In this document: positions 1-46,212 of the stretch, one piece after another
Numbering within the stretch: the first letter of the stretch is position 1
Layout: each line of letters begins with the position of its first letter
Assembly: GCF_002127325.2 (NCBI RefSeq)
Contig: NC_035441.2
Span: 46,752,663-46,816,662, forward strand
Source of the DNA: Helianthus annuus
Taxonomy: Eukaryota; Streptophyta; Magnoliopsida; Asterales; Asteraceae
Length of the DNA stretch: 64,000 bases
Direction: 5' to 3'
Notes under the pieces: model-generated
The model's database searches: none
Told to the model about the DNA's origin: nothing
The model's input: the letters and a program-made list of their open reading frames with translations, nothing else
Made by a program: the position numbers and the translations under genes

Positions 1-1265
1 GTTCGAGCCGCATGCATCCTCGTAAAGAAATATCTGACGTTCAGGACCCCGCAAAATAAAGGAACAGGTATTAACTTTAATTAACTTTAGTAACCAACAT
101 ATGTTGCAAGATATGGATCATGATACTTACCTGGTTGAGGAAGCCGGTCATGAATTTGCTGGACTCTGCAAACCCATGATTTTCAAATGGGAATACATTG
201 GGGGTAGCGGGAGGCTCTATTTCCTTTCTCTTCCGGGAGCTAGAGGCCCGGGTCCTCGATGTCGGAGGAGCTTTGGGAGTGAATGTCGTCTTCGAACTGG
301 TGGGCTTCGGTGTGACGGATGGCTTCGGGTTGGATTCTTGCTTAACAGGTGCGAGACTGGAATAACTGGGCCAACTCGTCAAGTTGGAAGCCTTCGAGGT
401 TGATAACTGGCAGTGAATAAGGGAAGAAATATTCAATTTGTAACTCTCGTACTTTACAATCATTATAATTGTGTGCTTACCAGACATCTCTGAGCTTGAT
501 TTTTGGCTTGAGTTTGTGAGAGACAGGGAGAAGGTTCTTTCACTAGCAGAAAGTCAGTAGATTTCTTTGATCGTGGACTCTGATTCCGCACTTGGGGATG
601 CTAGATCTCTGAAATTCGCTGCACAAAATATCAGGATATAAGTCTAAGATATAGTTTAAGGATACACTTGGGGATATTCCTAAAACCCAAGATCCTACCC
701 TTGGTTAACAATCTAACCGGCAGATCAAAACCCTTGTCAATAGAGTCTCTTTTTACAAAAAAGAACTTTCGCTGCCACTGGTCTTCGTTCATCGTGGCCT
801 TAAGGACTAAATGGTTCTTGGAAGTGGAGAACAAAGAAAGTGGCTGTTACCATGGGACCTCAATCGGTATGCTATGGGGAGGTCTTCGATGCACAGGTCA
901 GGGCAATGACGAGATTTAATCTGGTTCAGCACCATTAAAACTCACCAAACCATCAGCATGGTTTGGGCATAACTGAGGCCAGTAAGCTCAAAGAAACGAG
1001 AGACAAAGGGTGGAAATGAATACCGGGGTCCCAAGGAAAAGGAATAGGCAAGGAAGCAGACCCATTCGTTTGACGATGCGTCTGATCGGACTTCCCAATC
1101 AAAAGGGCGAATGACCACTCCAACAGGGAACGCACCAGAATCCTTCAGAGCGGCGATATCAGCGTTATTGGAGGAGCAGATTTCGTTTTGAGGCTCTCGT
1201 ATGAGGTTCAGACTCGTGAGGGTTGCGACTAGCTCATTCGATCGGGATCTTGTTCGAGATGCCAT
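1..1265 (-). pseudogene. Antisense gene of H (Transposase_28-like protein), broken
   Basis: Lies opposite to the element's sense strand, between pol (off-window) and the 3' LTR. Start ATG is at 1263-1265 (MASRTRSRSN). Exon 1 is 699-1265, exon 2 is 481-618 (138 bp), exon 3 ends at 131, and exon 4 starts at 33 and leaves the window. Donors GTAGGA, GTAAGC and GTAAGT and acceptors GCAG and TCAG are visible; the exon 3 acceptor is not resolved. Exon 1 has the family signature FDWEVRSD followed by FFELTGLSYAQTMLMVW and FFFVKRDS. Exon 3 carries a basic SRKRKE stretch. Breaks: TGA after MLMVW near 943, and TGA in exon 2. Homologous to the antisense genes of A, C and D. Function unknown; databases call the domain 'putative gypsy type transposon'. 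Confidence 0.75.
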
Positions 1266-5379: not shown

Positions 5380-6098
5380 TGTTAGGGCTGGATTTTTACT
5401 ATGAATGATCCTTATATGTGATCCTAACCAGTGATCCTTATTTCTTTGACAGGCAGTGATCCTCAGCCGGACCTCAGGATCAGGATCATGGGACGATATG
5501 GTGATCCTTACACTAACGGTCACTTCCACTCGTTACAAAATTGTTTTGCAGGAACACCTAGCAGGATATGCCCTACACATCATGATCCAGGGACGCGTTT
5601 TCACAAATATGGCAAGAGCTAAATTGGAGATAGACGTTGTACCGGATATGGAAACTTAGCTTGATTAATGGGCAACAATTTAGGCTAGATTATCTTTATT
5701 TCTAAAGGGGTAATGAGCTGATTAGTGGTCTATCTACCTAAAATAAGTTACCTACACATGTATAAATACCCATCTTCCTCATTCGGAAGAACACACACAA
5801 CATACGACACAACTCTCGAACACTTAGACACTCAGTGATCCTTGTACTCAGCTCATTATCATCCGAAGTTGTAACTACATTTTTATTATATTGAAGTTGG
5901 TGATCGGTAGTTGCCATCACCCGAGGTTTTTTATGCCGGAGATCATACATTGATCAAGGGCTTTTTCCTCGTATAAATCATTGTGTCTTTGTATCTTTAT
6001 CACAGAAGTGATCCTTTACTTTCATAGCTAACCAAGCATCATACCCCGTTTACATAAAGTTTGGTTACATTATCCTTGTGTGATTTTTGACCAAAACA
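5380..6098 (+). repeat. 5' LTR of A (719 bp)
   Basis: Starts TGTTAGGGCTGG and ends ACCAAAACA. Equal in length to the 3' LTR at 15423-16141 with the same embedded short open frames. The first 160 bp holds about ten copies of GATCCT or AGGATC. The U3 promoter TATAAATA is at 5761-5768, so transcription should start roughly 25-35 bp beyond it, near CATTCGGAAGAACACAC. Confidence 0.97.
5761..5768 (+). promoter_or_regulatory. TATA box of A 5' LTR
   Basis: Perfect TATAAATA in the LTR; the equivalent positions are 15804-15811 in the 3' LTR, 26607-26614 and 36661-36668 in C. It is the presumed RNA polymerase II promoter for the genomic sense transcript. Confidence 0.75.
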
Positions 6099-6176: not shown

Positions 6177-8747
6177 ATGGCTTCATCATTGAAGAACACC
6201 TCCACGGCGATGTCTGCAGTCACCTCAGCACAAACCACTCTACCTCCTCCACCGGCAGGATCCCAGAGAAATGCTGAGAAGAGACCAACCCCTTCTTTCT
6301 CTAAACCTCCATCTTCTTCTGCTATGAATTCTTCTATTCCCAGTACTAGTGATGTGTTTGCTTTAATTTTGCAGATGAAGGATCGTATGCAGCGGCAGGA
6401 TGAAACTAATGACAGGATCCTCAGGGAGATTGGAGATCTCAAAAGACAAAAGAAAGCGGCAGAGGATCATTCCCCACTGATGCCAAAATCCTTGAGTTTT
6501 GAGACTCCAATGGTCACCTCTCAGCCATCAGGGATCCCAGACGTACAGATCACAGGGGAGACGAGAGGATTACATCTCAAGTCAGCAGCAATGACTCAGA
6601 CATCGAGCTCGTATTTTCAGCCAGCAGGATCCTATCCTCAGTATATGGGATCCTTCATGAATCCGGGAGCCTATCCGGGGGCACAGCAGTTTCAAGGATC
6701 CTACTTTATCCCAGGATCATTCCAGGGCCAAGGATCCTCCTTTATTCCAGGATCATCCCAGGTTCAAGGATCCTCCTTCGTTCCAGGATCATCCCAGATA
6801 CCAGGATCCTTACAGATGCCAGGATCCCTAAAAAGTTTGCAAACAGGGAGTCTAGATGTCCATCAAGGGGACTTCATTCCAATGCAGACCATTGCTTCCA
6901 CTGGTCCCTCCGTTGTTCCAGAATCCCAGCAATATGGATTCCCTAACTTGAACCCAATGGGAGGTAACACTTTAAATAATTATCCTACTACTAACCTTGG
7001 ATTCATGCAGGATACAGGTACCAATCATGTTATGGCCAGGGAACTACAGAAACTAAAGGACATGATCTCAAGTGTTCCAGGGGTAGTCAAGCCTATCCCA
7101 GAGATTGCAGATGGGAGCCACAAGGTATCTCGCTTTGCACCACCAATCTGTGATGCAGAGGTACCCAAAAGGTTCCATATCCCTACCATGAAGTTGTATG
7201 ACGGCACAACGGATCCAGAGGAGCATATAGCACAATACAGGGAAAGGATGGAGATCAATCCTATCCCAGAAAAATTGAAGGAAGCATGCCTATGTAAAGG
7301 ATTTGGATCTACTCTTACTGGATCAGCCCTTAAATGGCTGCTAAGTCTTCCCCCTTACTCTATTACTTCATTTGCTAATTTAGTTAATTTATTCAATAAC
7401 CAATTCTCTTGTAGTAGAAAATTTGAAAAATTAACCAGTGATTTGTACAGGATAACTCAAAATAATAATGAATCATTAAGGGATTATATAACTAAATTTA
7501 GTAAAGAATCCTTGGATATTCCCAACTTGGATATGGCTACGGCTGTTGAAGCCTTCAAAATGGGACTTCTTAAGGATTCATTATTCTATGATGATCTTGT
7601 TATGACACCTTGCAGGAATTTAGATGAAGTAAGAACTCGAGCACTCAGGTTTATCCGGCTAGAGGATGACAAGAGGATCCAGGAGAGACAAGTAGGATCC
7701 TCAAAACAAGATAAGCAAGGATCCTCCTTCAAAAACAACAAATTCAAATCCTACCATAGAAACGAGAACAAGAATGTGCATGCTGTCGACCAAGAAGAGG
7801 ATGATGAAGAATATCCTCCAATCTCAGAATATTGTTTTTCCGTTGATAATCATGAACTAATCCTTGCAATGCAGAATCTAGGTGAAAAGGCTAGGTGGCC
7901 CAGGAAGAATGATAAACCATCCGGGACTAAAGACAAGTCCAAATGGTGTGCGTACCATGAGGATTTCGGGCATCTAACTGAAGATTGCATAGCCTTAAGA
8001 AAAGAAATTGGATACCTGCTAAGCAAGGGGCATCTAAAGGAATTGTTGGGAAGAAAAAAGCAAAGGACCCAGGATCCTGAAAAGATCCCTGAAAAGGCTC
8101 CAGCACCTCCGGCAAACGCACAAGTGATTAACTTCATATCCGGAGGATCAGACATTTGTGGAACATCCTTCTCAGCGGCCAAAAGACATGCAAAAGAATC
8201 AAAAATGGATAATGGAGAAAGGCCTATTAGAACCTCAAGCGTCTCAGAAGGAAAGATGATAACATTTGATGAGGATGATCGCATTAACATCCAGGATCCT
8301 CATCATGATAGTTTAGTTATCACTCTCTTTATTTCTAACCATTTTGTCCGCAGGATCCTTATCGATGGAGGGAGCTCAGTGAACATAATCCAGCTTGATG
8401 TCTTGAAAAAGATGGGAATCCCAGAATCAGACATCACACCAAGATCCTCCGTGCTTGTAGGATTCAGTGGAGAAACGAAGAAAACTCTGGGGGACATCAA
8501 ACTCCCAATCTACGTGGAAGGATTACATAATTACCAAAAATTTTGTGTTATTGACTGTTTATCTTGTTGCAACGTTATCCTTGGCAGGCCTTGGATACAT
8601 GACATGAAAGCAGTTCCATCTACCTACCATCAATGTGTGAAGCTCCCTAGCCCATGGGGGATAATCAAGATCGACAGTGATCAGCAAGAGGCTAAGGATT
8701 GCTATACCTCATCCATGAAGCCAACCTCGAAGCCAAGAGAGCAATAG
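6177..8747 (+). CDS. gag-pro: Gag-protease polyprotein of A
   Basis: 856 residues from ATG 6177 (MASSLKNTST); the open frame extends upstream into the LTR without an ATG, so this is the first credible start. Residues about 150-230 are a Gly-Ser-Pro-Gln rich repeat (PGSFQGQGSS-type) written with GGATCC/GGATCA. The gag core is near residues 320-500 (DPEEHIAQYRERM, SALKWLLSLPPYS). A CHHC zinc finger, CAYHEDFGHLTEDC, is near 590; it has His where retroviral knuckles have a second Cys. The aspartic protease has active site LIDGGSS near 730 and ILGRPWIHDMKAVPS near 800. It ends at UAG 8745-8747 with pol in the same frame downstream, so Gag-Pro would be the main product and Gag-Pro-Pol the readthrough product. 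Confidence 0.93.
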   Translation: MASSLKNTSTAMSAVTSAQTTLPPPPAGSQRNAEKRPTPSFSKPPSSSAMNSSIPSTSDVFALILQMKDRMQRQDETNDRILREIGDLKRQKKAAEDHSPLMPKSLSFETPMVTSQPSGIPDVQITGETRGLHLKSAAMTQTSSSYFQPAGSYPQYMGSFMNPGAYPGAQQFQGSYFIPGSFQGQGSSFIPGSSQVQGSSFVPGSSQIPGSLQMPGSLKSLQTGSLDVHQGDFIPMQTIASTGPSVVPESQQYGFPNLNPMGGNTLNNYPTTNLGFMQDTGTNHVMARELQKLKDMISSVPGVVKPIPEIADGSHKVSRFAPPICDAEVPKRFHIPTMKLYDGTTDPEEHIAQYRERMEINPIPEKLKEACLCKGFGSTLTGSALKWLLSLPPYSITSFANLVNLFNNQFSCSRKFEKLTSDLYRITQNNNESLRDYITKFSKESLDIPNLDMATAVEAFKMGLLKDSLFYDDLVMTPCRNLDEVRTRALRFIRLEDDKRIQERQVGSSKQDKQGSSFKNNKFKSYHRNENKNVHAVDQEEDDEEYPPISEYCFSVDNHELILAMQNLGEKARWPRKNDKPSGTKDKSKWCAYHEDFGHLTEDCIALRKEIGYLLSKGHLKELLGRKKQRTQDPEKIPEKAPAPPANAQVINFISGGSDICGTSFSAAKRHAKESKMDNGERPIRTSSVSEGKMITFDEDDRINIQDPHHDSLVITLFISNHFVRRILIDGGSSVNIIQLDVLKKMGIPESDITPRSSVLVGFSGETKKTLGDIKLPIYVEGLHNYQKFCVIDCLSCCNVILGRPWIHDMKAVPSTYHQCVKLPSPWGIIKIDSDQQEAKDCYTSSMKPTSKPREQ
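6625..6835 (+). repeat. GGATCC-based minisatellite inside A gag
   Basis: Irregular repeat of about 18-36 bp built around AGGATCCT and CCAGGATCATCCCAG, at least nine copies of GGATC in roughly 210 bp. Translated, it gives GSF/GSS/PGS units. The corresponding array in C is 27468-27680 with a few substitutions and the same unit number by eye. Confidence 0.8.
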
Positions 8748-12053
<3,306 letters not shown>

Positions 12054-12561: not shown

Positions 12562-12727
12562 CGATCCTTTGGGCTTGTCCCCAGTTATCCTTTGGGCTTG
12601 TCCCCAGTTATCCTATGGGCTTGTCCCCAGTGATCCTCCGGGATCATCCCCAGTTATCTTTTTGGGCTTGTCCCCAGTGATCCTCTGGAAACATCCTCAG
12701 TTATACTTTGGGCATGTCCCCAGTTAC
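12562..12727 (+). repeat. CCCCAG minisatellite downstream of pol (A)
   Basis: About seven units of 22-24 bp, core GGGCTTGTCCCCAGTTATCC, with a second unit type CCGGGATCATCCCCAGTTAT. The array in C has eight units. A diverged version occupies the same place in D (about 40125-40225). Tandem arrays between pol and the 3' LTR are known in Retand-type elements. Confidence 0.85.
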
Positions 12728-13497: not shown

Positions 13498-15114
13498 CTA
13501 CACCTTCGCTGCTTCATCACCACCAGCATCTCCACCTTGATCCTTCTCAGCTTCACCACCTTCCAGCATGGGGATCTCCTCAGCCTCATCCTCGTCCTCC
13601 AGGTCTGCCAGCCTTGCCTTCCAACCTTCAACGTCCCATGAGCTTTTGTCAAAAGAGGGATCCTGAGCCTCCTCAGCCATTTGAAGTTGGATCTTGTACA
13701 TAGCAATCGCCGCTGAGACCTTGGCATCTTGGGTGATCTCCTGCTTCTCACTATCCATATCAATCAACCTCTGAGCAGCCTCAGCCTTCATGACCCGGAG
13801 TTCCTTCTCAAGATCTCCTATCTTGAGATCCTTAAGCACACCCATTTGTTGAAGGTCAGCAATCTGGCTCTCCTGGTCCTCAACATTGCCAAGATAAGTT
13901 TCAATCTCAGCAAGTTTCTGCAACAAAAAAAAAAAAAGACAAACTCAGAATCAGGTGATCCTCAAGAAGGATACTAGAAACAGATAACCAACAGGGGCAG
14001 TGATCCTCACCTCGTTCACATAATCAAGAAATTGTTGACGAAGGAGAGGGAATCCTTGGAGTTCATCAGAAGCTTTCCTCTTCTTTCCCTTGCCCCGAAT
14101 GGACGCTTTAGGAGCTGAGACTGAAGGGCTGGCAGCGGGAGCTTTCTTCTTTGAGGAAGTGACGTTGGCAAGATCACTGATCCCAAACTTGGAGGCAGAT
14201 TTAACAGACCTGGCAGACTTTCCGGCACCTACACAATTCAAAAAACAAGATAAGTTCCCTTGTTAAATTAAATACTTTCACATAAAACTTATTTTCTATG
14301 AGGATACTTACTTGACATTGTGGCAGATGCAGAGGATATCTCTTGAGAATCTTGGATAATAACCTGGAAACTTCGAACTTCAGGATCAAGCTTCTTGAAA
14401 GCTAACACTCTCTCTTTGGCAGCAGGGGTCAAGTTTAAATGAGCAACGGAGATAGCTGCATAAAAAGACAAAAAAGAAAAGACATCAGTGATCCTCATCA
14501 TACGAGACAGGACTGATAGTGATCCTTCAAGGATCCTCTACCCTACCATGAGTGGCCCATTCCTCGGGCAGATCCTTCCCATCCGGGATGGAATCCCTCT
14601 TAACAAAGAAAAACCGACGTTTCCAGTTTTTATCATTCTTGGTAACTTTGAAGATAGGGTGATCCTCCCCAGATTTCCGTTTCAACAAGTACCGGTGAGA
14701 ACCAAAGGTGGTGAGATCATAGAGCTCAGCTAACTCTGACATCCCCAAATCAATCCCTTCTTGCTCGATGATCCTCTCAAAGGTATATAGAACCCTCCAG
14801 ATCATCGGCATAGCTTGGATAAATGAGATGCCGGTAAGAGAAAAGAAAGATTGGGTAAATGTCGGAAAAGGATATGAATACCCGATGAGGAAAGGAGTAG
14901 CAGGAAAGGCCACCCAAGTGTCCGAAACAAAATCACTCAAAGCAGTAGGATCAAAAGACTTAAAAACCACGTTCGCCGGAAAGCAATGGCGAAGCTTGTC
15001 TATTTGGATATCGGTAAAACAGCATCTCTCCATAGGAGAATCTTTGATAATCCCCTGGCTTTTCAAGGGACTATCCTTCTTAGAGCCTTTGTGCGGTGAA
15101 TTCCGAAGAAGCAT
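13498..15114 (-). CDS. Antisense four-exon gene of A (Transposase_28-like, 449 aa)
   Basis: Exons, in transcription order: 14547-15114, 14312-14455, 14011-14228, 13498-13917. Introns use GTAGGG..GCAG, GTAAGT..GTAG and GTGAGG..GCAG with phases 1, 1 and 0; joined length is an exact multiple of three. Exon 1 holds the conserved domain (FFSLTGISFIQAMPMIWRVL; KRRFFFVKRDSIPDG), matching what Pfam names Transposase_28, 'putative gypsy type transposon'. Exon 3 is basic with a likely nuclear signal, GKGKKRKASDE. Exon 4 looks like a coiled coil (LAEIETYLGNVEDQESQIADLQ) with an acidic Gly-rich tail. An upstream in-frame start at 15189 would add 25 hydrophobic residues; I prefer MLLRNSPHKG at 15114 because it follows that leader-like stretch, but both are possible. 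Function unknown. Confidence 0.8.
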
Positions 15115-15257
15115 ATTCGAGATGAAAACAGGGTAAAAGCAAGAAAGAACAGAGCAAAGAAGAAAAAGAAGAAGATGATACCTGATCAAGCCTTCGGTGA
15201 CGATTATAAAGGAAGATACTTCGAATTTAAATGCAAAATGATCCTAACCCTATCTCC

Positions 15258-15265
15258 TATTTATA
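15258..15265 (-). promoter_or_regulatory. TATA box for the antisense gene of A
   Basis: Minus strand TATAAATA followed by GGAGATAGGG, about 145 bp upstream of the preferred ATG and inside the region between the antisense gene and the 3' LTR. C has the same box at 36115-36122. It implies a dedicated internal promoter rather than LTR-driven antisense transcription. Confidence 0.65.
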
Positions 15266-15410
15266 ATGATGATTCGCAGGGATTGTCACATCAGTGACGT
15301 AAATATCATAACGGCTAGTCCATGTGCAACGGCTAGTAAATCGGAATCGTCCGTTAGAGATAAGCTCAAAACAAAATATAACTCATCTATTTACATTTAA
15401 CTCCTTATAT

Positions 15411-15422: not shown

Positions 15423-16141
15423 TGTTAGGGCTGGATTTTTACTATGAATGATCCTTATATGTGATCCTAACCAGTGATCCTTATTTCTTTGACAGGCAGT
15501 GATCCTCAGCCGGACCTCAGGATCAGGATCATGGGACGATATGGTGATCCTTACACTAACGGTCACTTCCACTCGTTACAAAATTGTTTTGCAGGAACAC
15601 CTAGCAGGATATGCCCTACACATCATGATCCAGGGACGCGTTTTCACAAATATGGCAAGAGCTAAATTGGAGATAGACGTTGTACCGGATATGGAAACTT
15701 AGCTTGATTAATGGGCAACAATTTAGGCTAGATTATCTTTATTTCTAAAGGGGTAATGAGCTGATTAGTGGTCTATCTACCTAAAATAAGTTACCTACAC
15801 ATGTATAAATACCCATCTTCCTCATTCGGAAGAACACACACAACATACGACACAACTCTCGAACACTTAGACACTCAGTGATCCTTGTACTCAGCTCATT
15901 ATCATCCGAAGTTGTAACTACATTTTTATTATATTGAAGTTGGTGATCGGTAGTTGCCATCACCCGAGGTTTTTTATGCCGGAGATCATACATTGATCAA
16001 GGGCTTTTTCCTCGTATAAATCATTGTGTCTTTGTATCTTTATCACAGAAGTGATCCTTTACTTTCATAGCTAACCAAGCATCATACCCCGTTTACATAA
16101 AGTTTGGTTACATTATCCTTGTGTGATTTTTGACCAAAACA
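15423..16141 (+). repeat. 3' LTR of A (719 bp)
   Basis: Same length and, by eye, same sequence as the 5' LTR. TATA box at 15804-15811. Right flank ATTGC at 16142-16146 repeats the left target site. Confidence 0.97.
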
Positions 16142-16146
16142 ATTGC

Positions 16147-16702
16147 CAACATGAAAACCTTTCCTCCTGTAGACTTTGGAATCTTTCCCACTATATCCAT
16201 ACCCCATTTCATAAACGGCCAAGGGGATACGATAGGATATAATGGTTCTGCAGGCTGATGTAGGATGTTTTCGTGTCTTTGACATGCATCGCATTTCCGA
16301 GCGTATTCTGTAGCATCCTTTCTGATAGTCGGCCAGTAGTATCCTGTTCTCAACACCTTCAAGAACAAAGATCTGCCCCCAGTATGGTTGCCACAGTCTC
16401 CTTCGTGTATATCCTAAAGTACCTCCTTGATTTCAGGATCTTCCAAGCACCTTAGGTACGGACCTACAAGGGATTTCTTATACAAAATATTATTTATAAT
16501 AGTGAAATGAGATACCTTCATCCTAAAAGCCTTAGGATTTGCATCCTTTGGGATATCTCCTTCTTGAAGATACTTCACAGTTGGAGTCAACCAGGATTCA
16601 GGATCCTTCTCAGGATATCCATCACTAGGATCCTGGATACATGCTACCTCTTTATCCTGAGATTTGAAATGTTCCATTGCAGGATACAAGATGTGCACTA
16701 TT
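16147..16702 (-). pseudogene. pol: Integrase N-terminal part of F
   Basis: Runs from the region after archaeal RNase H (DKEVACIQDPSDGYPEKDPESW) through the integrase zinc-binding segment (HEGDCGNHTGG to CDACQRH) to [21 protein letters not shown], where A interrupts. A stop, TAG, replaces the CAG seen in D, between KEVL and DIHEGD near 16415. The frame otherwise stays recognisable. The 16698-16702 bases CTATT are the TSD of G. Confidence 0.85.
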
Positions 16703-18084
16703 TGTCACATCCCCAAAATCGACACGCGGAGTATCACCGCATGGAGGCGTGACATGACCAGGATCAAGCCACCAATCATACTGAACAACGTATGTAGTAA
16801 ATAAAATTCAACCAAACAATATGAAAGGTGTTCAAAACCAAAGCATAGTTAAGTGTTTAGCGGAAGCATAAATGTAAAACCCAATGTAATTATTAAGTAC
16901 GAAATAAAATAATGTTTTTAACATGGCATACACTGCCATGTCCCATAACGACCGCGCCTCCCTATGCAAGCTCCATGAGTACCTAACGACCTGCAAGGCA
17001 TATAGCAACGAATCAACAACAAAGTTGAGCGAGTTCACAGTTGGTTGTTTAGTTATAGTATTCGTTTCGTAAATCGTATGTTTGTTTAGTAAACAATGTA
17101 TCGTATTTATTTGTATCGCGGCCTTCCAGGCATGTTTGCGAAGATTTGTGGGGGTTTCCCATGTATTCTAGACTAGTTTTATTTGTATCGCGGCCCTCCA
17201 GGCATGTTTGCGAAGTTTTGTATTCGTATCGCGGCCATTCCAGGCATGTGTGCGAAGATTAGTATTCGTATCGCGACCATTCCAGGCATGTATGCGAAGA
17301 TTAGTATTCGTATCGCGGCCATTCCAGGCATGTTTGCGAAGATAAGTATTCGTATCGCGGCCATTCCAGGCATGTTTGCGAAGATTAGTGGGGGATTCCC
17401 ATGTGTTACTAGTCTAGCTGTATCTATAAGTGACCTTCTCCTAACGAGGTCAGTGGTACGTATTCCATTAACGATGAAAGTACAAGTAATCATTTAACCC
17501 CATTCCCAACCCTGGGAATCCCATACCTTGGTAAGAGTGTGAACTCACCTTGGTTTGCTCGGTATGCTAAAGAAACACACGCTCACAAATAATCAGTCAC
17601 TACCACGATCTCGATAAAGTGGGATGATGCCTCGAGGGGATGTCTACTGTCGTCGCACACAAATGGTGAGTAGGGTTTTTGTTATGTTGTGTGTTGTTGT
17701 GTTATAATTTGTGAGATATATTCCTGATACGTATGTTCGGTTATAGGACCAAACAACACAAGTGGCCCAAGTTAATAATACACACTCACAACACAAATGG
17801 GCCGATCATATATATGCTAGTTCATACATGAGTGGCCAATTCATGTGGGCCGAAGATAAGCCAAACAATCTATATACAAACACACTTATGATGCACACCA
17901 AAATATAATTATAATCACAACACTTTTGCAAACAAGTACTAGGTTAAGTCGAGTAGGAACCTTGAAAACTCGAGTTGTCACATTATCCCCAACTTGAAAG
18001 AAATTTCATCCCGAAATTTAGCACGTGATTACTGAGGAAGCTAGTTGTGTTGTGTAGTTTACTGGTTTTTCCTGGGGTGTCACA
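16703..18084 (-). repeat. 3' LTR of G (1,382 bp)
   Basis: Plus strand starts TGTCACATCCCC and ends GGGGTGTCACA. Contains the 42-bp tandem array at about 17110-17395. No gene inside: the long open frames on both strands over the array are an effect of the 42-bp period. Confidence 0.93.
17110..17395. repeat. 42-bp minisatellite in the left LTR of G
   Basis: Five to six units with core TATCGCGGCCATTCCAGGCA followed by TGTTTGCGAAGATTAGTATTCG. The unit length is a multiple of three and free of stops in one frame on each strand, giving mirror open frames. The right LTR has one more unit. Confidence 0.9.
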
Positions 18085-22680: not shown

Positions 22681-22683
22681 ATC

Positions 22684-24099
22684 TGTCACACCTCCAAAAT
22701 CGACACGCGGAGTATCACCGCATGGAGGCGTGACATGACCAGGATCAAGCCACCAATCATATTGAACAACGTATGTAGTAAATAAAATTCAACCAAACAA
22801 TATGAAAGGTGTTCAAAACCAAAGCATAGTTAAGTGTTTAGCGGAAGCATAAATGTAAAACCCAATGTAATAATTAAGTACGAAATGAAATAATGTATTT
22901 AACATGGCATACACTGCCATGTCCCAAAACGACCGCGCCTCCCTGTGCAAGCTCCATGAGTACCTAATGACCTGCAAGGCATGTAGCAACGAATCAACAA
23001 CAAAGTTGAGTGAGTTCACAGTTGGTTGTTTAGTTATAGTATTCGTTTCGTAAACCGTATGTTTGTTTAGTAAACTATGTATCGTATTTATTTGTATCGC
23101 GGCCTTGCAGGCATGTTTGCGAAGATTTATGGGGGTTTCCCATGTATTCTAGACTAGTTGTATTTGTATCGCGGCCCTCCAGGCATGTTTGCGAAGTTTT
23201 GTATTCGTATCGCGGCCATTCCAGGCATGTGTGCGAAGATTAGTCTTCGTATCGCGGCCATTCCAGGCATGTGTGCGAAGATTAGTATTCGTATCGCGGC
23301 CATTCCAGGCATGTTTGCGAAGATAAGTATTCGTATCGCGGCCATTCCAGGCATGTTTGTGAAGATAAGTATTCGTATCGCGGCCATTCCAGGCCTGTTT
23401 GTGAAGATTAGTGGGGGATTCCCATGTGTTACTAGTCTAGCTGTATCTATAAGTGACCTTCTCCTAACGAGGTCAGCGGTACGTATTCCAGTAACGATGA
23501 AAGTACAAGTAATCATTTAACCCCATTCCCAACCCTGGGAATCCCATGCCTTGGTAAGAGTGTGAACTCACCTTGGTTTGCTCGGTATGCTAAAGAAATA
23601 CACGCTCACAAATAATCAGTCACTACCACGATCTCGATAAAGTGGGATGATGCCTCGAGGGGATGTCTACCGCCGTCGCACACACAAGTGGTGAGTAGGG
23701 TTTTTGTTATGTTGTGTTATAATTTGTGAGATATATTCCTGATACGTATGTTCGGTTATAGGACCAAACAACACAAGTGGCCCAAGTTAATAATACACAC
23801 TCACAACACAAATGGGCCAATCATATATATGCTAGTTGGTACATGAGTATCCAATTCATGTGGGCCGAAGATAAGCCAAACAATCTATATACAAACACAC
23901 TTATGATGCACACCAAAATATAATTATAATCACAACACTTTTGCAAACAAGTACTAGGTTAAGTCGAGTAGGAACCTTGAAAACTCGAGTTGTCACATTA
24001 TCCCCAACTTGAAAGAAATTTTATCCCGAAATTTAGCACGTGATTACTGAGGAAGCTAGTTGTGTTGTGTAGTTTACTGGTTTTTCCTGGGGTGTCACA
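22684..24099 (-). repeat. 5' LTR of G (1,416 bp)
   Basis: Plus strand starts TGTCACACCTCC and ends GGGGTGTCACA. Its 42-bp array (about 23090-23415) has one more unit than the left LTR. Substitutions and indels between the two LTRs make G clearly older than A or C. Confidence 0.93.
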
Positions 24100-24550: not shown

Positions 24551-25829
24551 TGTAACACCCCAAAACTCGAATTATAAAATTCGTTGGAGTATCGCCATAT
24601 TTAATAATACGAAATGCAATAACTAAGTTAATAAAACTTGGTTAAATACTTAACAAAATAATTAAGGGAATGAAATGGGAAAAATAGTGATTAAGTAACA
24701 ACTAGGAGGGGCTAGGTTGCCAAAATGGGAGAACTTTTATTGATTAAAATTAAAAAAACCAACACACATTGTGTATGTGTGTGGGTGTCGATATATCGAC
24801 CAGGAAGAAGAGGGGAATGGGACAAATCCCTAGCTCACCAAAAACCTTCAAATTGAAAGAGGAAATTGGCAAGAAACTTATGCATGGGCTTAGATTTGTG
24901 ATTATCCAGCCATTCTACACATAAGGTAAGTTGTAGTAGTTATTTTAGTGATTTAGTAAGAAGTGAATCCATGATTAGTTCATGAAATTGTATGGAATTA
25001 AACATGTAGAGGTGTTGGAATCACCAAGCAGATAGTATATTATGAACAAGTTCGAGTAATTGAATGTCTTGACTTGAAACCCATTTGGTGATGATATAGA
25101 TGACAACATGAGTGTAGTATTCATGTCTAAATCATGTGTAAATTTGATAGAGTATGTTGAATATGGTGAATTATTGCTGGTTAAGTTGAAGTATAACATG
25201 AAATTTATTGATGTTTAGCTAGAGATGAATAAATGCAAAGATAGGGAATGAAAGTATAAAAGGATTCTACATTTAGCTTAGATGGTAGTACGCACACAAG
25301 GTGTTTGATGAAATGTCTAAATGACAATGATGTATGAAATTGCATTATACGCTTGAATAATATGATGTATGTCTATGGATTGTTTGACCGTATTAGTTTT
25401 GACCAAAGAATAAATATGGAACGAATGAGAATCCTAGAAAAGAGTAAACTTAAATGATGTTGCTATGAACGGAATGGAATGTGTATGTGTATAGGTAACT
25501 ATTTTAGTCACGTGGCCGAATGTGTCCTACAATATGAGTATGAAGCATAGATGGCATAATGATTATGTTTTAACACGTTAATTTGTAAATAAATGTGTGT
25601 CAAAGTTGGAAATTGAAATGCTTGATGGTTGACTTTCTGGAAAGTCAACAATAGTAGGAATGTTGTGATTTGGATCTCTTAACATAAATGTACGATTTAG
25701 GAAGTCAAGTGATGTATGATATGTTTAAAGTGAGATATGTGATGGCGCGTTCATATCATACAAGTAGGAAGGATCGCATTGTTAGTCCATACTATGTGTT
25801 GTTAGAAATTGACTAATGAAAGCCAAGTG
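24551..25829 (+). repeat. Element E, left segment of a solo LTR (about 3,033 bp in total)
   Basis: Starts TGTAACACCCCAAAACTCG, the typical start of Tekay/Del-type LTRs. D interrupts it after 25829 and it resumes at 46213. The TSD AGGTC is at 24546-24550 and 47967-47971. No PBS, coding region or second LTR is present between the ends apart from D, so this is a solo LTR left by LTR-LTR recombination. Apart from scattered AT-rich sequence I see nothing else in this segment. Confidence 0.85.
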
Positions 25830-26225
25830 TGTTTTGGTCAAAAATTACCAAAGCAATTAAGTGATCAAATTAGTTAAGTGAGGTAGTGTGCTAAGAAAGT
25901 GTGTTGAAAATATGCTGATTAAGTTGTTTGCAAAAACAGTTTGCAGGATACGGCTCAGGATATTGAGTTGTATCTACGATCAAACTATGAGCAAAAAGTA
26001 AAGGAAATGACACGAGATGCACGAGGAAAGCCCTTGATCAATCTAGATCGCCGGCATAAAACCTCGGGAGCTGACAATCGCTGCTGCCTAGTTCTTCTTA
26101 TTGCTTCAAACTTCAGGATACAGTGCAGGATATTGACCAGATTGCTAAGTGTTACAATGCTTTGTGTGAAAGTAAAAGTTGCGAGAGAACAAGTGTAAGA
26201 GTGTAGTGAGTGTTGATGTGATGTC
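25830..26225 (-). repeat. 3' LTR of D, left half
   Basis: Matches 45463-45861 of the right LTR from TGTTTTGGTCAAAAATTACC to GTGATGTC with scattered substitutions. Interrupted by C, whose TSD ATGTC is at 26221-26225. The other half is 37003-37351. Confidence 0.93.
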
Positions 26226-26943
26226 TGTTAGGGCTGGATTTTTACTATGAATGATCCTTATACGTGATCCTAACCAGTGATCCTTATTTCTTTGGCAGGC
26301 AGTGATCCTCAGCCGGACCTCAGGATCAGGATCACGGGACATTGAGGTGATCCTAGTACTAACGGTCATTTTCGATTACTACAATATTATTTTGCAGGAA
26401 TATCTAGCAGGATATGCCCTACATATCATGATCCAGGGACGCGCTTTTACAAATATGGCAAGAGCTGAATTGAAGATGAACGTTGTGCCGGATATGGAAA
26501 CATGGCTTGATCTAAGGGCAGCAATTTAGGCTAGATTATCTTTATTTCTAAAGGGGTAATGAGCTGATTAGTGGTCTATCTACCTAAAATAAGTTACCTA
26601 CACATGTATAAATACCCATCTTCCTCATTCGGAAGAACACACACAACATACGACACAACTCTCAACACTTAGACACTCAGTGATCCTTGTACTCAGCTCA
26701 TTATCATCCGAAGTTGTAACTACATTTTTATTATATTGAAGTTGGTGATCGGTAGTTGCCATCACCCGAGGTTTTTTATGCCGGAGATCATACATTGATC
26801 AAGGGCTTTTTCCTCGTATAAATCACTGTGTCTTTGTATCTTTATCACGGAAGTGATCCTTTACTTTCATAGCTAACCAAGCATCATACCCCGTTTACAT
26901 AAAGTTTGGTTACATTATCCTTGTGTGATTTTTGACCAAAACG
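26226..26943 (+). repeat. 5' LTR of C (718 bp)
   Basis: Starts TGTTAGGGCTGG; ends ACCAAAACG, with G in place of the terminal A. TATAAATA at 26607-26614. It differs from the A LTR in a block around 26337-26400, so A and C come from distinct source lineages. Confidence 0.96.
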
Positions 26944-27021: not shown

Positions 27022-29592
27022 ATGGCTTCATCATTGAAGAACACTTCCACGGCGATGTCTGCAGTCACCTCAGCACAAACCACTCTACCTCCTCCACCGG
27101 CAGGATCCCAGAGAAATGCTGAGAAGAGACCAACCCCTTCTTTCTCTAAACCTCCATCTTCTTCTGCTATGAATTCTTCTATTCCCAGTACTAGTGATGT
27201 GTTTGCTTTAATTTTGCAGATGAAGGATCGTATGCAGCGGCAGGATGAAACTAATGACAGGATCCTCAGGGAGATTGGAGATCTCAAAAGACAAAAGAAA
27301 GCGGCAGAGGATCATTCCCCACTGATGCCAAAATCCTTGAGTTTTGAGACTCCAATGGTCACCTCTCAGCCATCAGGGATCCCAGACGTACAGATCACAG
27401 GGGAGACGAGAGGATTACATCTCAAGTCAGCAGCAATGACTCAGACATCGGGCTCGTATTTTCAGCCAGCAGGATCCTATCCTCAGTATATGGGATCCTT
27501 CATGAATCCGGGAGCCTATCCGGGGGCACAGCAGTTTCAAGGATCCTACTTTATTCCAGGATCGTTCCAGGGCCAAGGATCCTCCTTTGTTCCAGGATCA
27601 TCCCAGGTTCAAGGATCCTCCTTCGTTCCAGGATCATCCCAGATACCAGGATCCTTACAGATGCCAGGATCCCTAAAAAGTTTGCAAGCAGGGAATCTAG
27701 ATGTCCATCAAGGGGACTTCATTCCAATGCAGACCATTGCTTCCACTGGTCCCTCCGTTATTCCAGAATCCCAGCAATACGGATTCCCTAACTTGAACCC
27801 AATGGGAGGTAACACTTTAAATAATTATCCTACCACTAACCATGGATTCATGCAGGATACAGGTACCAATCACGCTATGGCCAGGGAATTACAGAAACTA
27901 AAGGACATGATCTCAAGTGTTCCAGGGGTAGTCAAGCCTATCCCAGAGATTGCAGATGGAAGCCACAAGGTATCACGCTTTGCACCACCAATTTGTGATG
28001 CAGAGGTGCCCAAAAGGTTCCATATCCCTACCATGAAGCTGTATGATGGCACGACGGATCCAGAGGAGCATATAGCACAATACAGGGAAAGGATGGAAAT
28101 CAATCCTATCCCAGAAAAGTTAAAGGAAGCATGCCTATGTAAAGGATTTGGATCCACTCTAACTGGATCAGCTCTTAAGTGGCTGCTAAGTCTTCCCCCT
28201 TACTCTATTACTTCATTTGCTAATTTAGTTAATTTATTCAATAACCAATTCTCTTGTAGTAGAAAATTTGAAAAATTAACCAGTGATTTGTACAGGATAA
28301 CTCAAAATAATAATGAATCATTAAGGGATTATATAACTAAATTTAGTAAAGAATCCTTGGATATTCCCAACTTGGATATGGCTACGGCTGTTGAAGCCTT
28401 CAAAATGGGACTTCTTAAGGATTCATTATTCTATGATGATCTTGTTATGACACCTTGCAGGAATTTAGATGAAGTAAGAACTCGAGCACTCAGGTTTATC
28501 CGGCTAGAGGATGACAAGAGGATCCAGGAGAGACAAGTAGGATCCTCAAAACAAGATAAGCAAGGATCCTCCTTCAAAAACAACAAGTTCAAATCCTACC
28601 ATAGAAACGAGAACAAGAATGTGCATGCTGTCGACCAAGAAGAGGATGATGAAGAATATCCTCCAATCTCAGAATATTGTTTTTCCGTTGACAATCACGA
28701 ACTAATCCTTGCAATGCAGAATCTAGGTGAAAAGGCTAGGTGGCCCAGGAAGAATGATAAACCATCCGGGACTAAAGACAAGTCCAAATGGTGTGCATAC
28801 CATGAGGATTTCGGCCATCTAACTGAAGATTGCATAGCCTTAAGAAAAGAAATTGGATACCTGCTAAGCAAGGGGCATCTAAAGGAATTGTTGGGAAGAA
28901 AAAAGCAAAGGACCCAGGATCCTGAAAGGATCCCTGAAAAGGCTCCAGCACCTCCGGCAAATGCACAAGTGATTAACTTCATATCCGGAGGATCAGACAT
29001 TTGTGGAACATCCTTCTCAGCGGCCAAAAGACATGCAAAAGAATCAAAAATGGATAATGGAGAAAGGCCTATTAGAACCTCAAGCGTCTCAGAAGGAAAG
29101 ATGATAACATTTGATGAGGATGATCGCATCAACATCCAGGATCCTCATCATGATAGTTTAGTTATCACTCTCTTTATCTCTAACCATTTTGTCCGCAGGA
29201 TCCTTATCGATGGAGGGAGCTCAGTGAACATAATCCAGCTTGATGTCTTGAAGAAGATGGGAATCCCAGAATCAGACATCACACCAAGATCCTCCGTGCT
29301 TGTAGGATTCAGTGGAGAAACGAAGAAAACTCTGGGGGACATCAAACTCCCAATCTACGTGGAAGGATTACATAATTACCAAAAATTTTGTGTTATTGAC
29401 TGTTTATCTTGTTGCAACGTTATCCTTGGCAGGCCTTGGATACATGACATGAAAGCAGTTCCATCTACCTACCATCAATGTGTGAAGCTCCCTAGCCCAT
29501 GGGGGATAATCAAGATCGACAGTGACCAGCAAGAAGCTAAGGATTGCTATACCTCATCCATGAAGCCAACCTCGAAGCCAAGGGAGCAATAG
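27022..29592 (+). CDS. gag-pro: Gag-protease polyprotein of C
   Basis: 856 residues from ATG 27022, same start context as A. Same layout: Ser/Gly/Pro/Gln-rich repeat near residues 150-230, gag core near 320-500, CHHC zinc finger near 590, protease LIDGGSS near 730. Differs from A by a handful of residues (for example SGSYF for SSSYF, VIPES for VVPES), mostly in the N-terminal third. No lesion seen. Ends at UAG 29590-29592 with pol in frame. Confidence 0.95.
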   Translation: MASSLKNTSTAMSAVTSAQTTLPPPPAGSQRNAEKRPTPSFSKPPSSSAMNSSIPSTSDVFALILQMKDRMQRQDETNDRILREIGDLKRQKKAAEDHSPLMPKSLSFETPMVTSQPSGIPDVQITGETRGLHLKSAAMTQTSGSYFQPAGSYPQYMGSFMNPGAYPGAQQFQGSYFIPGSFQGQGSSFVPGSSQVQGSSFVPGSSQIPGSLQMPGSLKSLQAGNLDVHQGDFIPMQTIASTGPSVIPESQQYGFPNLNPMGGNTLNNYPTTNHGFMQDTGTNHAMARELQKLKDMISSVPGVVKPIPEIADGSHKVSRFAPPICDAEVPKRFHIPTMKLYDGTTDPEEHIAQYRERMEINPIPEKLKEACLCKGFGSTLTGSALKWLLSLPPYSITSFANLVNLFNNQFSCSRKFEKLTSDLYRITQNNNESLRDYITKFSKESLDIPNLDMATAVEAFKMGLLKDSLFYDDLVMTPCRNLDEVRTRALRFIRLEDDKRIQERQVGSSKQDKQGSSFKNNKFKSYHRNENKNVHAVDQEEDDEEYPPISEYCFSVDNHELILAMQNLGEKARWPRKNDKPSGTKDKSKWCAYHEDFGHLTEDCIALRKEIGYLLSKGHLKELLGRKKQRTQDPERIPEKAPAPPANAQVINFISGGSDICGTSFSAAKRHAKESKMDNGERPIRTSSVSEGKMITFDEDDRINIQDPHHDSLVITLFISNHFVRRILIDGGSSVNIIQLDVLKKMGIPESDITPRSSVLVGFSGETKKTLGDIKLPIYVEGLHNYQKFCVIDCLSCCNVILGRPWIHDMKAVPSTYHQCVKLPSPWGIIKIDSDQQEAKDCYTSSMKPTSKPREQ
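27468..27680 (+). repeat. GGATCC-based minisatellite inside C gag
   Basis: Counterpart of the A array; units such as CAAGGATCCTCC and CCAGGATCATCCCAG. One unit has GTTCCAGG where A has ATTCCAGG. Encodes the same GSS/PGS repeat. Confidence 0.8.
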
Positions 29593-33406: not shown

Positions 33407-33594
33407 GATCCTTTGGGCTTGTCCCCAGTTATCCTTTGGGCTTGTCCCCGGTGATCCTCCGGGATCATCACCAGTTATCCTTTGGGCTTGTCCCCAGTGA
33501 TCCTCCGGGATCATCCCCAGTTATCCTTTGGGCTTGTCCCCAGTGATCCTCCGGGATCATTCTCAGTTATCCTTTGGGCTTGTCCCCAGTTACT
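33407..33594 (+). repeat. CCCCAG minisatellite downstream of pol (C)
   Basis: Eight units that alternate almost perfectly between a TTTGGGCTTGTCCCCAG type and a CCGGGATCATCCCCAG type. A has seven units and less regular alternation, so the array is changing in length and order between sisters. Confidence 0.87.
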
Positions 33595-34360: not shown

Positions 34361-35971
34361 CTACTTCTCCGCTGCTCCATCTCCACCAGCATCTTCACCA
34401 TGATCCTTGCCAGCATCACCTCCCTCCAGCCTTGGGATATCCTCAGCATCCTCCTCATCATCCAAGTCTACCAGCCTTGCCTTCCAACCTTCAACATCCC
34501 ATGAGCTCTTGTCAAAGGCAGGATCCTGAGCCTCCGCAGCCATTTGTAGTTGTATCTTGTACATAGCAGTTGCGGCAGAGACCTTGGCATCCCGGATGAT
34601 CTCCTGCTTCTCATTATCCATGTCAATCAGCCTCTGAGCAGCTTCATCCTTGGTGGCCTGGAGTTCCTTCTCAAGATCCGCTATCTTGAGATCCTTCAAC
34701 ACACCCATTTGCTGAAGATCGGCAATCTGGCTCTCCTGGTCCTCAACATTGCCAAGATAAGTTTCAATCTCAGCAAGTTTCTGCAAACAAAAGAAATAAA
34801 GACAAGCTCGGAATCAGGTGATCCTCGAAAGATACTAGATAACCAACAGGGGCAGTGATCCTCACCTCGTTCACATAGTCAAGAAATTGCTGACGAAGGA
34901 GAGGGAATCCTTGGAGTTCATCAGAGGCTTTCCTCTTTTTTCCCTTACCCCGAATGGACGCTTTAGGAGCTGAGACTGAAGGGCTGGCAGCAGGAGCCTT
35001 CTTCTTCTTAGAAGACGTGACATTGGCAAGGTCACTTATCCCAAACATGGAGGCAGACTTAACGGACCTGGCAGACTTTCCGGCACCTACACAATTCAAA
35101 AACAAGATAAGTTCCCTTGTTAAATTAAATACTTTCACATAAAACTTATTTTCTATGAGGATACTTACTTGACATTGTGGCAGATGCAGAGGATATCTCT
35201 TGAGAATCTTGGATAATAACCTGGAAACTTCGAACTTCAGGATCAAGCTTCTTGAAAGCTAACACTCTCTCTTTGGCAGCAGGGGTCAAGCCTAAATGAG
35301 CAACGGAGATAGCTGCATAAAAAGACAAAAAAGAAAAGATATCAGTGATCCTCATCATACGAGACAGGACTGATAGTGATCCTTCAAGGATCCTCTACCC
35401 TACCATGAGTGACCCATTCCTCGGGCAGATCCTTCCCATCCGGGATGGAATCCCTCTTAACAAAGAAAAACCGACGTTTCCAGTTTTTATCATTCTTGGT
35501 AACTTTGAAGATAGGGTGATCCTCCCCAGATTTCCGTTTCAACAAGTACCGGTGAGAACCAAAGGTGGTGAGATCATAGAGCTCAGCTAACTCTGACATC
35601 CCCAAATCAATCCCTTCTTGCTCGATGATCCTCTCAAAGGTATATAGAACCCTCCAGATCATCGGCATAGCTTGGATAAATGAGATGCCGGTAAGAGAAA
35701 AGAAAGATTGGGTAAATGTCGGAAAAGGATATGAATACCCGATGAGGAAAGGAGTAGCAGGAAAGGCCACCCAAGTGTCCGAAACAAAATCACTCAGAGC
35801 AGTAGGATCAAAGGGTTTGAAAACAACATTCGCTGGGAAACAATGGCGAATCTTGTCTATTTGGATATCGCTAAAGCAGCATCTCTCCGTAGGAGAATCT
35901 TTGATAATCCCCTGGCTTTTCAAGGGACTATCCTTCTTAGAGCCTTTGTGCGGTGAATTCCGAAGAAGCAT
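34361..35971 (-). CDS. Antisense four-exon gene of C (Transposase_28-like, 450 aa)
   Basis: Exons in order of transcription: 35404-35971, 35169-35312, 34866-35086, 34361-34780, with the same splice sites and phases (1, 1, 0) as A. Joined length is a multiple of three; one extra Lys in exon 3 (SSKKKKAP) keeps frame. Exon 1 domain is almost unchanged from A except near residues 30-60 (SPTERCCFSDIQIDKIRHCF). Exon 3 basic GKGKKRKASDE suggests nuclear import. Exon 4 coiled coil and acidic tail. No stop or frameshift. It points toward pol, so transcripts converge with the sense strand. Likely a nuclear protein; its activity is unknown. Confidence 0.82.
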
Positions 35972-36114: not shown

Positions 36115-36122
36115 TATTTATA
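36115..36122 (-). promoter_or_regulatory. TATA box for the antisense gene of C
   Basis: Minus strand TATAAATA followed by GGAGATAGGG at the same distance from the ATG as in A (about 145 bp). Confidence 0.65.
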
Positions 36123-37351: not shown

Positions 37352-37368
37352 ATTGTCCCCAAAAAATG
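37352..37368 (-). other. Polypurine tract of D
   Basis: Minus strand CATTTTTTGGGGACAAT next to the LTR, matching the H tract. Confidence 0.7.
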
Positions 37369-37599: not shown

Positions 37600-39356
37600 A
37601 TGGCTAGACAAACTAGATCGAGCTCCGGTGATTCTGCTCCTACGTTTATCCAGCAGAATATCTCCAAGATCCGGAGAAGGAAATATGCACTTTTGATAGT
37701 GCTCACTTGTCAGCCCTTAAAACCTCCGGCATCTTCCCGGAAGGGACAGTGTTCCGACCATTTGATTGGGAAATCCGATCAGATATGGTTTTCGATGAAT
37801 GGCTATGCTTTAATGCTTTTCCCTTTACCTTAGGGTTACGATTTCCTTTCTCTGAGTTTATCACCGAGTTTTTTAACCTCACCAAGATTTCTTTTAGTCA
37901 AACAATGCCAATGCTTTGGCGGGTCCTGTCTGTTCTTGATCAAATCAAGAAGAATCATATCCCTGACCTCTCCGTCCATGACCTCCCTTTAGCATACCGG
38001 CTTAGATGTCACGGCTCTTGTCGATTCTTGTTTTACTCTACTTCCAGCGACCCATTAATCCTCCGAGCTACCATGAATGAAGAGGAATGGAAATCCAAAT
38101 TCTTTTTTGTAACAAGAGATTCAATCCCTGGTGGAGCGGATTATCCGGTGAAATGGTTGAAAAAGGGTAGGACCTAGGGTTTTAGGACGATCCTGTCTTA
38201 TATCCTGCCGCATATCTTGAACTGACTTTGTTGTTTTCTTGTACACAGCTGATTTTAGGAAGCTTGCACCCCCCCTTGCTGAATCACAAAAGAGGATTGA
38301 CGCTATCAGACTCTTTCCCGAAGCTGAAAGAAGTTTTAACCCCTCTCCACCATCTCCAAGCCCTCTTTCCAGTGTAAACATGTCTGGTAAGGATCCTGTT
38401 CGATATCCTGCATACATGCTTTTATTTGAAATATTTAGGAAAGAATTTTACTCCCTGTATGCAGATTCCAGCAAAGTTTCAATCCTCCTTGACCTTGACG
38501 AGCTTGATAGTTATCCTACTCCAGTCATGGTCAAGAAAGAGACCCCTGCTGCCACCAGCTCCAAGCCGCTTCCGGCTCCCAAGGCTAATCCGAGGACTCG
38601 TGCTTCTACCACAAAAAAGAGGATGGGCTCTGAAGTTAGTGCCCCAGGCTCCGAAGGGTTCTCCTATGATGAGCTCAACTTTACCGATTCCTTGGAACCG
38701 ATGACATCCTTCCTAAACAAGGTAATATCCTGGCACTACATCCTGCATAATATCCTGATAGGATATTCTGGTTAGTGAATATTAACTTATATTTGAATTT
38801 CAACTTACAGGGCCTCCAACATCTGCTCCAGCTTTACAACGATGCCTGCGGTACTACTGCACTCCATGAAGCTAGGATCAAGCAGCTTGAAACTACCGTC
38901 GCTGACCAAGGTGCCATTGCTGAAGCAATGACTCGGCACTACGAGGACAAGCTGAAGAAGGTCACCCAGGATGCTGAGGTCAAGCTGGCTACTGCCCAAA
39001 TGGATCATGAACAAGCCATGGTCTCTTTCCGGGAGGGAATCAAGGCGTCTGCTATAGTCTCTCTGCTGCAAGCTCGCATCAAGATGGCTTATGAGGCCAA
39101 GGAGACAGACCTTGTGTGCCCAGCTTGGCCAGTTGACTCTTGGGCGGCAAAGTTGAAGGAGCTTGGAGGCAAGGATGTGCCACTTCCTGCAGAAGCTGGT
39201 GAGTCCTCTAAGTCAGCAGAGGTGGTAGATAAGGCTGGAGACAAGAAGGATGCTGGAGCAGATGCTGGGATAGATGCTGGTGAGGATGCTGCTCAGGATG
39301 TTGTGTTGAGAAGTCGAAGAAGGCTGGTGAAGACGCCGCTGTGTGAGGGCATTTGA
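37600..39356 (+). pseudogene. Antisense four-exon gene of D, frameshifted
   Basis: Plus strand, opposite to D's sense. ATG 37600 (MARQTRSSSGD). Exons 37600-38166, 38249-38386, 38525-38721, 38811-39356; introns GTAGGA..ACAG, GTAAGG..CCAG and GTAATA..ACAG with phases 1, 1 and 0, as in A and C. Exon 2 is 138 bp, as in H. Exon 1 matches A at FPF, FFNLTKISFSQTMPMLWRVL and SKFFFVTRDSIPGG; a one-base deletion near 37680 shifts frame before EICTFDSAHLSALKTSG. Exon 3 has basic TTKKRMGSE. Exon 4 is helical and charged with a GAD-rich acidic tail; a short indel near 39300 changes the last residues. Intron 2 is 138 bp and open, so retention would stay in frame. Confidence 0.77.
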
Positions 39357-45441: not shown

Positions 45442-45459
45442 GCCCCACAGTGGGCGCCA
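45442..45459 (-). other. Primer binding site of D (tRNA-Lys type)
   Basis: Minus strand TGGCGCCCACTGTGGGGC; one base differs from A, C and I. Confidence 0.8.
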
Positions 45460-45462
45460 AAT

Positions 45463-46207: not shown

Positions 46208-46212
46208 AAGTG

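Follow-up and report, generated by a model that had tools for sequence, protein, structure and literature searches.

The 64-kb window analysed here (64,000 nucleotides of the sunflower, Helianthus annuus, contig NC_035441.2, positions 46,752,663 to 46,816,662, numbered from its first letter) contains the long terminal repeat (LTR) retrotransposons that we call A, C and D. Element A carries, on the strand opposite to gag-pol, an antisense gene of four exons (13498-15114, minus strand). Its three introns begin with GT and end with AG, lie in phases 1, 1 and 0, and their removal leaves an unbroken product of 449 amino acids plus stop. The parts of this gene, and its counterparts in C, D and a decayed relative called H, are as follows.

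14547..15114, minus strand: A exon 1, 568 nt, divergent TRP28-like domain
14456..14546, minus strand: A intron 1, phase 1
14312..14455, minus strand: A exon 2, 144 nt
14229..14311, minus strand: A intron 2, phase 1
14011..14228, minus strand: A exon 3, 218 nt, coding for a basic linker for which mostly disorder is predicted
13918..14010, minus strand: A intron 3, phase 0
13498..13917, minus strand: A exon 4, 420 nt including the stop, coding for a long helix (predicted coiled coil) with an acidic tail
34361..35971, minus strand: C antisense gene (locus L041 of the genome search below), exons 35971-35404, 35312-35169, 35086-34866 and 34780-34361; TATA box at 36115-36122
37632..39356, plus strand: D antisense gene, exons 37632-38166, 38249-38386, 38465-38721 and 38811-39356; frame broken near the start
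131..1265, minus strand: H, exon 1 at 1265-699, exon 2 at 618-481, exon 3 at 406-131, exon 4 beyond the window edge

The original prediction had placed this gene in all four elements. It is intact in A and C, where the foretold joins of 449 and 450 codons are unbroken; in D it is broken near the start and in H it has decayed. The C exons measure 568, 144, 221 and 420 nt, again with phases 1, 1 and 0, and give 450 amino acids. Counted from the start of the domain open reading frame (ORF) at 37632, those of D measure 535, 138, 257 and 546 nt. The D introns are also GT..AG with phases 1, 1 and 0, and they fall at the same places as those of A (after WATH/WLKK, TMS/NMS and VNE/LNK), as had been claimed for A, C and D, in joined products that share 30% identity (E 3e-49). 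Note that the ATG of D (37600) is out of frame with the ORF bearing the homologous domain, and D is therefore broken near its start. Exon 2 has the lengths originally read, 144 nt in A and C and 138 nt in D and H. In H, GT or AG stands at all five splice sites read, and exon 1 contains a stop and frame breaks. The gene is more than a chance pattern: its longest antisense ORF, of 238 amino acids, tops the maximum of 166 found in 300 first-order Markov sequences (mean 95, standard deviation 20), and another 28 copies in the genome show this splice plan.

Copies in the genome and selection on the protein

Evidence for selection has to come from other copies, because the identity of A and C in their introns reflects recent shared ancestry. 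A DNA search of the 3.01-Gb assembly, in which 40 of 8665 first-look candidates were scored, provided the best 30 copies, which were taken as loci and include A and C. All six splice dinucleotides (GT/AG) and the upstream TATAAATA box are retained in 30 of these 30, and 29 copies are intact. Exon 3 measures 218 or 221 nt and exon 4 420 or 426 nt, that is, they change in steps of three, whereas intron 2 (82 or 83 nt) and intron 3 (85, 87, 89, 93 or 106 nt) vary by 1 to 21 bases and not in multiples of three. One copy (L030; chromosome 9, 46618980-46620742), 147 kb upstream, is identical to A save for 4 missing bases in intron 3.

In keeping with the selection for the protein that had been proposed, the ratio of non-synonymous to synonymous differences per site (pN/pS) was not near 1: pooled over all 406 pairwise comparisons among the 29 intact copies it was 0.14 for the whole antisense coding sequence, and 0.13, 0.065, 0.043 and 0.197 for exons 1 to 4. 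Variable sites at antisense codon positions 1, 2 and 3 numbered 38, 46 and 152. The remaining two antisense frames gave pN/pS values of 1.08-4.25, exons 3 and 4 being compared in the 23 and 25 copies of the commonest length. As a yardstick, A vs C gave 0.07 for gag-pro, 0.07-0.09 for two pol pieces and 0.175 for the antisense coding sequence. The pairwise synonymous divergence (dS) of eight representative intact copies ranged from 0.04 to 0.37.

A more diverged group was obtained by searching with an annotated protein (P0079, 67% identical to A) and choosing ten copies among the matches without stops. Eight of the ten are intact, with exons of 565, 144, 215-218 and 429 nt, and all ten have TATAAA 152-159 bp upstream. 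Their introns measure 84-88, 73-93 and 80-81 nt. The intron boundaries read in the window recur, as predicted, in other copies of the near and of the diverged group; one broken diverged copy (L063), as aligned, is without the AG of intron 2. The four-exon join of another (L059) equals the public XRQ gene model P0079 exactly. Of the public homologues listed, 120 in number, 82 span the full length. Among these 82, the three junctions are all free of nearby gaps in 29, and another 29 are gapped at junction 1, where automatic gene models therefore disagree.

For 13 intact sequences the median dN/dS was 0.09 (78 pairs) and the pooled pN/pS 0.21, with synonymous sites near saturation between groups. 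With introns as the neutral measure, the median dN/d(intron) was 0.45 (0.38 within groups, 0.50 between). We had expected diverged introns to be unalignable; this was contradicted by an identity of 59-75% between the introns of A and those of three diverged copies, against 43-50% for shuffled introns. Methylated, fast-changing third positions may inflate dS. On these sequence comparisons the constraint on the protein is clear in direction, and its strength varies with the yardstick. A search for spliced retrocopies by an exon 1/exon 2 junction pattern found 0 in the genome; this pattern, used without a positive control on the genome, fits 30 of 30 A-like junctions and 0 of 10 in the diverged group, and is sensitive to the A-like group only. 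We are nearly certain that the antisense gene is real, selected and protein-coding.

A conserved block upstream of the gene

The following two features lie upstream of the gene in A.

15258..15265, minus strand: TATAAATA box of the A antisense gene, 144-151 bp upstream of the ATG
15295..15300, minus strand: ACGTCA, upstream of the TATA box within a conserved block, from the alignment of 15 upstream regions

In A as in C the box had been placed about 145 bp ahead of the ATG, and it was found there (in C at 36122-36115). In 15 aligned upstream regions, five from near and ten from diverged copies, the conserved block consists of ACGTCA (changed in L061), GTGA and then ATCATNATTATAAAT. ACGTCA in the A block may be read as a bZIP-type site. 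The predicted promoter block of A is located about 160 bp from its 3' LTR, and its conservation fits a promoter inside the element. In D, the only TATA-like word found upstream is TATAAT at 37301, about 300 bp away and inside the LTR. Of the 15 aligned regions, 14 retain the word CAGGTA, which in A stands about 65-70 bp ahead of the ATG; the leader could hold in it a second signal, for regulation or for splicing.

The encoded protein is a divergent TRP28 relative

The two motifs quoted in the original prediction are present in both families despite 30% identity, as FFSLTGISFIQAMPMIWRVL and FFFVKRDSIPDG in A and as FFNLTKISFSQTMPMLWRVL and FFFVTRDSIPGG in D. The basic patch described for exon 3 was also found:

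14074..14085, minus strand: KKRK patch, nuclear-signal-like, its last three residues invariant in 54 aligned proteins

The AlphaFold model (mean predicted local distance difference test score, pLDDT, 60.5) has an N-terminal alpha/beta part, a low-confidence stretch at 220-297 holding the invariant K-R-K, a helix at 298-393, a short helix at 406-418 and a low-confidence acidic end. The long helix agrees with the coiled coil foreseen in exon 4, as a model prediction. Two low-confidence AlphaFold models gave no significant match to solved folds, DNA-binding ones included, a missing match that says nothing about the fold. A PDB sequence search with A exon 1 returned nothing at E<=10.

The family name Transposase_28 given originally did not emerge from Pfam, which reported no family above its cut-off in A, D and their relatives: for PF04195 (Transposase_28), A exon 1 had no match at E<=1 and D scored 14.2 bits against the curated cut-off of 26.2, and none of 6 proteins of the A family or 8 of the D family had PF04195 listed at E<=1. 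Comparison of profiles did reveal a remote kinship. With hhalign, run without an unrelated control profile, the profile of 54 A and D proteins matched that of 11 sunflower TRP28 ORFs across 178 columns, at a probability of 91 and an E value of 1e-6; an A-family-only profile gave probability 68 and E 4.8e-5, and a 12-protein mixed profile probability 90 and E 1.7e-6. The identity between A-type and canonical TRP28 proteins is about 17% over the 178 aligned columns. The A/D protein family thus appears, on profile comparison only, to be a set of divergent and remote TRP28 relatives.

The TRP28 profile comes from 11 of 28 fetched loci, with ORFs placed by the match positions of the hidden Markov model (L001 and L004-L006 gave no long ORF, probably through a wrong choice of strand). 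Alignment A4 holds 54 of 158 proteins. Of the 61 rows in A5, alignment A6 retains 44, the omitted ones mostly covering too little of exon 1. Among the matches listed with a named organism (the best 120 of 139, 38 of 38 and the best 120 of 181), the protein searches gave Helianthus only; these searches score only the candidates sharing most words, and such a listing does not show absence elsewhere. Two of the 120 listed matches (P0114 and P0119) come from unnamed short ENA contigs. They were considered as complementary DNA evidence and rejected, since both read into intron 1.

The elements in the window and their lineage

The features that place the gene within its element are the following.

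5380..6098, plus strand: 5' LTR of A, 719 bp, identical to 15423-16141, with TG..CA ends
15423..16141, plus strand: 3' LTR of A, 719 bp; the pair differs at 0 of 719 positions
8748..12053, plus strand: pol region of A, in two stop-to-stop ORFs with the TAG at 9612-9614 between them
26226-26943 and 36280-36997: LTRs of C, 718 bp, 1 difference, at the last base

A is flanked by a 5-bp target duplication, ATTGC, and C by ATGTC. C has landed within one LTR of D, which is a minus-strand element: the pieces 25822-26225 and 37003-37352, once joined, are 96.4% identical to the other D LTR (45456-46208), the D LTR ends being approximate in these coordinates.

The pol domains of A follow the Tat order of reverse transcriptase, ribonuclease H (RNase H), second RNase H and integrase. 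In the ORF at 9615-12050 the domain models match at 61-186 (RNase H), 236-354 (RVT_3), 455-510 (H2C2) and 528-624 (rve), and the reverse transcriptase is encoded in the preceding ORF. A second RNase H between RNase H and integrase is the arrangement described for Ogre/Retand elements (PMC6317226), and A has it, together with an antisense extra ORF between pol and the 3' LTR, an LTR pair and a 5-bp target duplication. By domain order, antisense gene position and size match, A is classified from its sequence as a Ty3/gypsy LTR retrotransposon of the Tat clade, Retand type.

Antisense genes with a TRP28 domain have been described as typical of Retand elements. According to Vicient 2025 (PMC11963269), 61 of 63 Retand clusters have an antisense TRP28 ORF in the stretch from pol to the 3' LTR, and the two clusters without TRP28 are Helianthus annuus 4 and 5. 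Clusters 4 and 5 have LTRs of 720 and 719 bp, internal regions of 9,310 and 9,313 bp and pol-to-LTR regions of 3,327 and 3,343 bp (PMC11963269). The corresponding values are 719, 9,324 and 3,369 bp for A and 718, 9,336 and 3,381 bp for C. Because these sizes match, A and C are probably members of clusters 4 and 5, a match of size and not of sequence, and the two clusters probably carry a diverged, intron-split TRP28 relative.

Several other features were observed in these elements. An in-frame TAG stands between the gag-pro ORF and pol at the equivalent place in A (8745-8747) and C (29590-29592), the same frame resuming after it, and is a possible readthrough signal. The extra TAG of A at 9612-9614 is not in C. 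A and C each have tandem arrays rich in GGATC or ATCC, in the gag ORF as well as downstream of pol (6687-6826, 27532-27671, 12564-12726 and 33408-33592). 42-bp tandem arrays at 17180-17389 and 23160-23412 lie inside a repeated segment (16700-18084 vs 22681-24099, 93% identical).

A possible nuclear regulator expressed from the antisense strand

The exon plan, the selection on the protein in the antisense frame, the conserved upstream block and the remote TRP28 kinship were computed directly. We propose, with a probability of about 0.6, that the antisense gene is a spliced, protein-coding accessory gene of a Tat/Retand-type element, expressed antisense from its own promoter and encoding a nuclear coiled-coil regulator. 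Transcription would begin at a promoter located within the element, 150 bp upstream of the start codon and near the 3' LTR. The antisense transcript could be spliced into an mRNA for a protein of about 450 amino acids; splicing as drawn is very probable. The genomic RNA would bear the complement of the introns, which would stay unspliced there, and the introns would in this way survive reverse transcription, as in retroelement intron reporters. The protein, with a putative layout of divergent TRP28-like N-terminal domain, disordered basic linker with KKRK, long coiled coil and acidic tail, would enter the nucleus and dimerise through the coiled coil. There it might act on the DNA or chromatin of its own element, in transcription control, relief of silencing or choice of integration site. 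A nuclear accessory regulator is favoured because of the orientation, the KKRK patch, the long helix and the analogy with gene23 of maize Grande; we give this nuclear regulatory role, as read from sequence features, even odds.

Alternatively, a real protein might serve the particle or help to import the pre-integration complex into the nucleus, and not act in transcription or chromatin. This is possible, if rather doubtful: the KKRK patch and the long helix would equally suit an import adaptor or a structural factor, and such a role is named as possible (PMC7264820), whereas a separate antisense promoter would uncouple the protein from Gag production, which would be odd for a particle component.

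That the antisense RNA itself is functional, forming duplexes with the genomic RNA, with the open frame incidental, we consider very unlikely. Antisense RNAs do regulate other retroelements (PMC12786077; PMC7264820), and in the present case introns and the upstream region are conserved as well. However, a function of the RNA would not spare codon positions, and variation at third positions is 3-4 times that at first or second ones and so tracks the antisense frame; moreover, the exon indels of intact copies keep the frame and the intron indels do not.

A caution concerns the close agreement of A and C. They diverge by 2.6% in exon 1, 1.1% in intron 1, 1.4% in exon 2 and 0% in intron 2, and by 7.3% in exon 3, 15.3% in intron 3 and 12.4% in exon 4. 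A and C are mosaic, and their long identical block spans introns too, so that their agreement taken alone points to recent shared ancestry and not to selection. We had regarded the A/C identity as a sign of selection and dropped it on this ground; the A/C comparison made in the original prediction carries little weight in view of this recent mosaicism. In the segment 13498-15264, divergence from A shifts from segment to segment, differently between copies (L031-L058), and this pattern suggests template switching or gene conversion. One could then argue that there is no selection at all and that the gene is intact only since all copies are young offspring of one recent source, the LTR pairs of A and C being near-identical (0 of 719 and 1 of 718 differences), a block being shared identically and the copies examined being best matches. 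This is highly improbable, since intact copies occur at dS 0.04-0.37 and in two groups near saturation with frame and introns kept, and since D has all three intron positions at 30% identity.

Constraint from the sense strand or from overlapping regulatory DNA can hardly be upheld: one sense frame per exon does give pN/pS of 0.05-0.29 and the introns are partly conserved, but a low value is to be expected in the reverse frame whose wobble positions coincide with those of the antisense frame, and in keeping with the original reading there is no sense ORF of 150 amino acids over the gene region (longest stop-free sense stretch, 137 amino acids).

In a wider form of the proposal, an antisense gene of several exons with ancient, selected introns would be common to the whole class of Retand-type elements. 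Because of these introns its protein would come only from the antisense transcript, and the spliced antisense mRNA could avoid being taken for a silencing trigger. The product would have a new fold, would work in the nucleus against silencing or in the targeting of integration, and would occur in almost all active Retand families, the supposed losers included. We consider this generalisation unlikely.

Significance and comparison with known systems

Almost every Retand cluster with recent activity has, according to PMC11963269, an antisense accessory gene. ORF surveys miss introns and Pfam surveys miss diverged members, and a divergent intron-bearing form of the antisense gene may have been overlooked so far. 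The indications that two supposedly empty sunflower families have a selected, intron-bearing relative suggest that the gene may be close to universal in the Retand lineage. Exact exon junctions, a predicted promoter position and conserved residues are now given for tests of expression, localisation and retrotransposition.

The type of gene is already known; in the parts of the literature covered, neither the conserved four-exon plan nor the measures of selection nor the diverged form in supposedly TRP28-less families was found in print. The same literature, with the original Gomez-Orte 2013 paper and supplements outside the search, gave no account of introns in Retand-type antisense genes, and Vicient and Casacuberta 2020 urge the study of antisense and spliced transcripts (PMC7264820). 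In PMC11963269 the word 'intron' is absent and 'splic' and 'exon' occur in the reference list only. Its Retand TRP28 ORFs resemble the A and C genes in their place between pol and the 3' LTR and in their strand relation, and a DNA-related regulatory role is proposed for them; unlike them, A and C have a domain too diverged for Pfam and a gene in four exons. Smc-type domains are named in some Retand antisense ORFs (PMC11963269), and Neumann et al. 2019 (PMC6317226) put the share of Retand elements with Transposase_28 at only 23%. Silene Retand ORF4 and rice RIRE2 also have an antisense ORF between pol and the 3' LTR, with Transposase_28 in the Retand one (PMC7264820). The active sunflower elements described with extra ORFs are Athila and Tekay, not the A/C family (PMC11728184).

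Canonical sunflower TRP28 loci share part of the plan of the A gene. In 4 of 8 inspected by eye (L003, L007, L009 and L016), a phase-1 GT..AG intron lies just before a VMSALDF-like stretch, near A intron 2, and helix-rich coding stretches follow it. The region that A intron 1 splits is, unlike in A, a single exon in these canonical loci.

HBZ of human T-cell leukaemia virus 1 (HTLV-1) is an antisense retroelement gene for a nuclear protein, with a spliced form and a start in the 3' LTR. It resembles the A gene in logic only, no relation in sequence being claimed; HBZ is also named in PMC11963269. Gene23 of maize Grande is antisense, has its own promoter and encodes a nuclear protein (Gomez-Orte et al. 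2013, as described in PMC7264820). Like it, the A gene is an antisense accessory gene in the 3' internal region; the own promoter and the nuclear protein of gene23 are only predicted for A, and the likeness is one of description.
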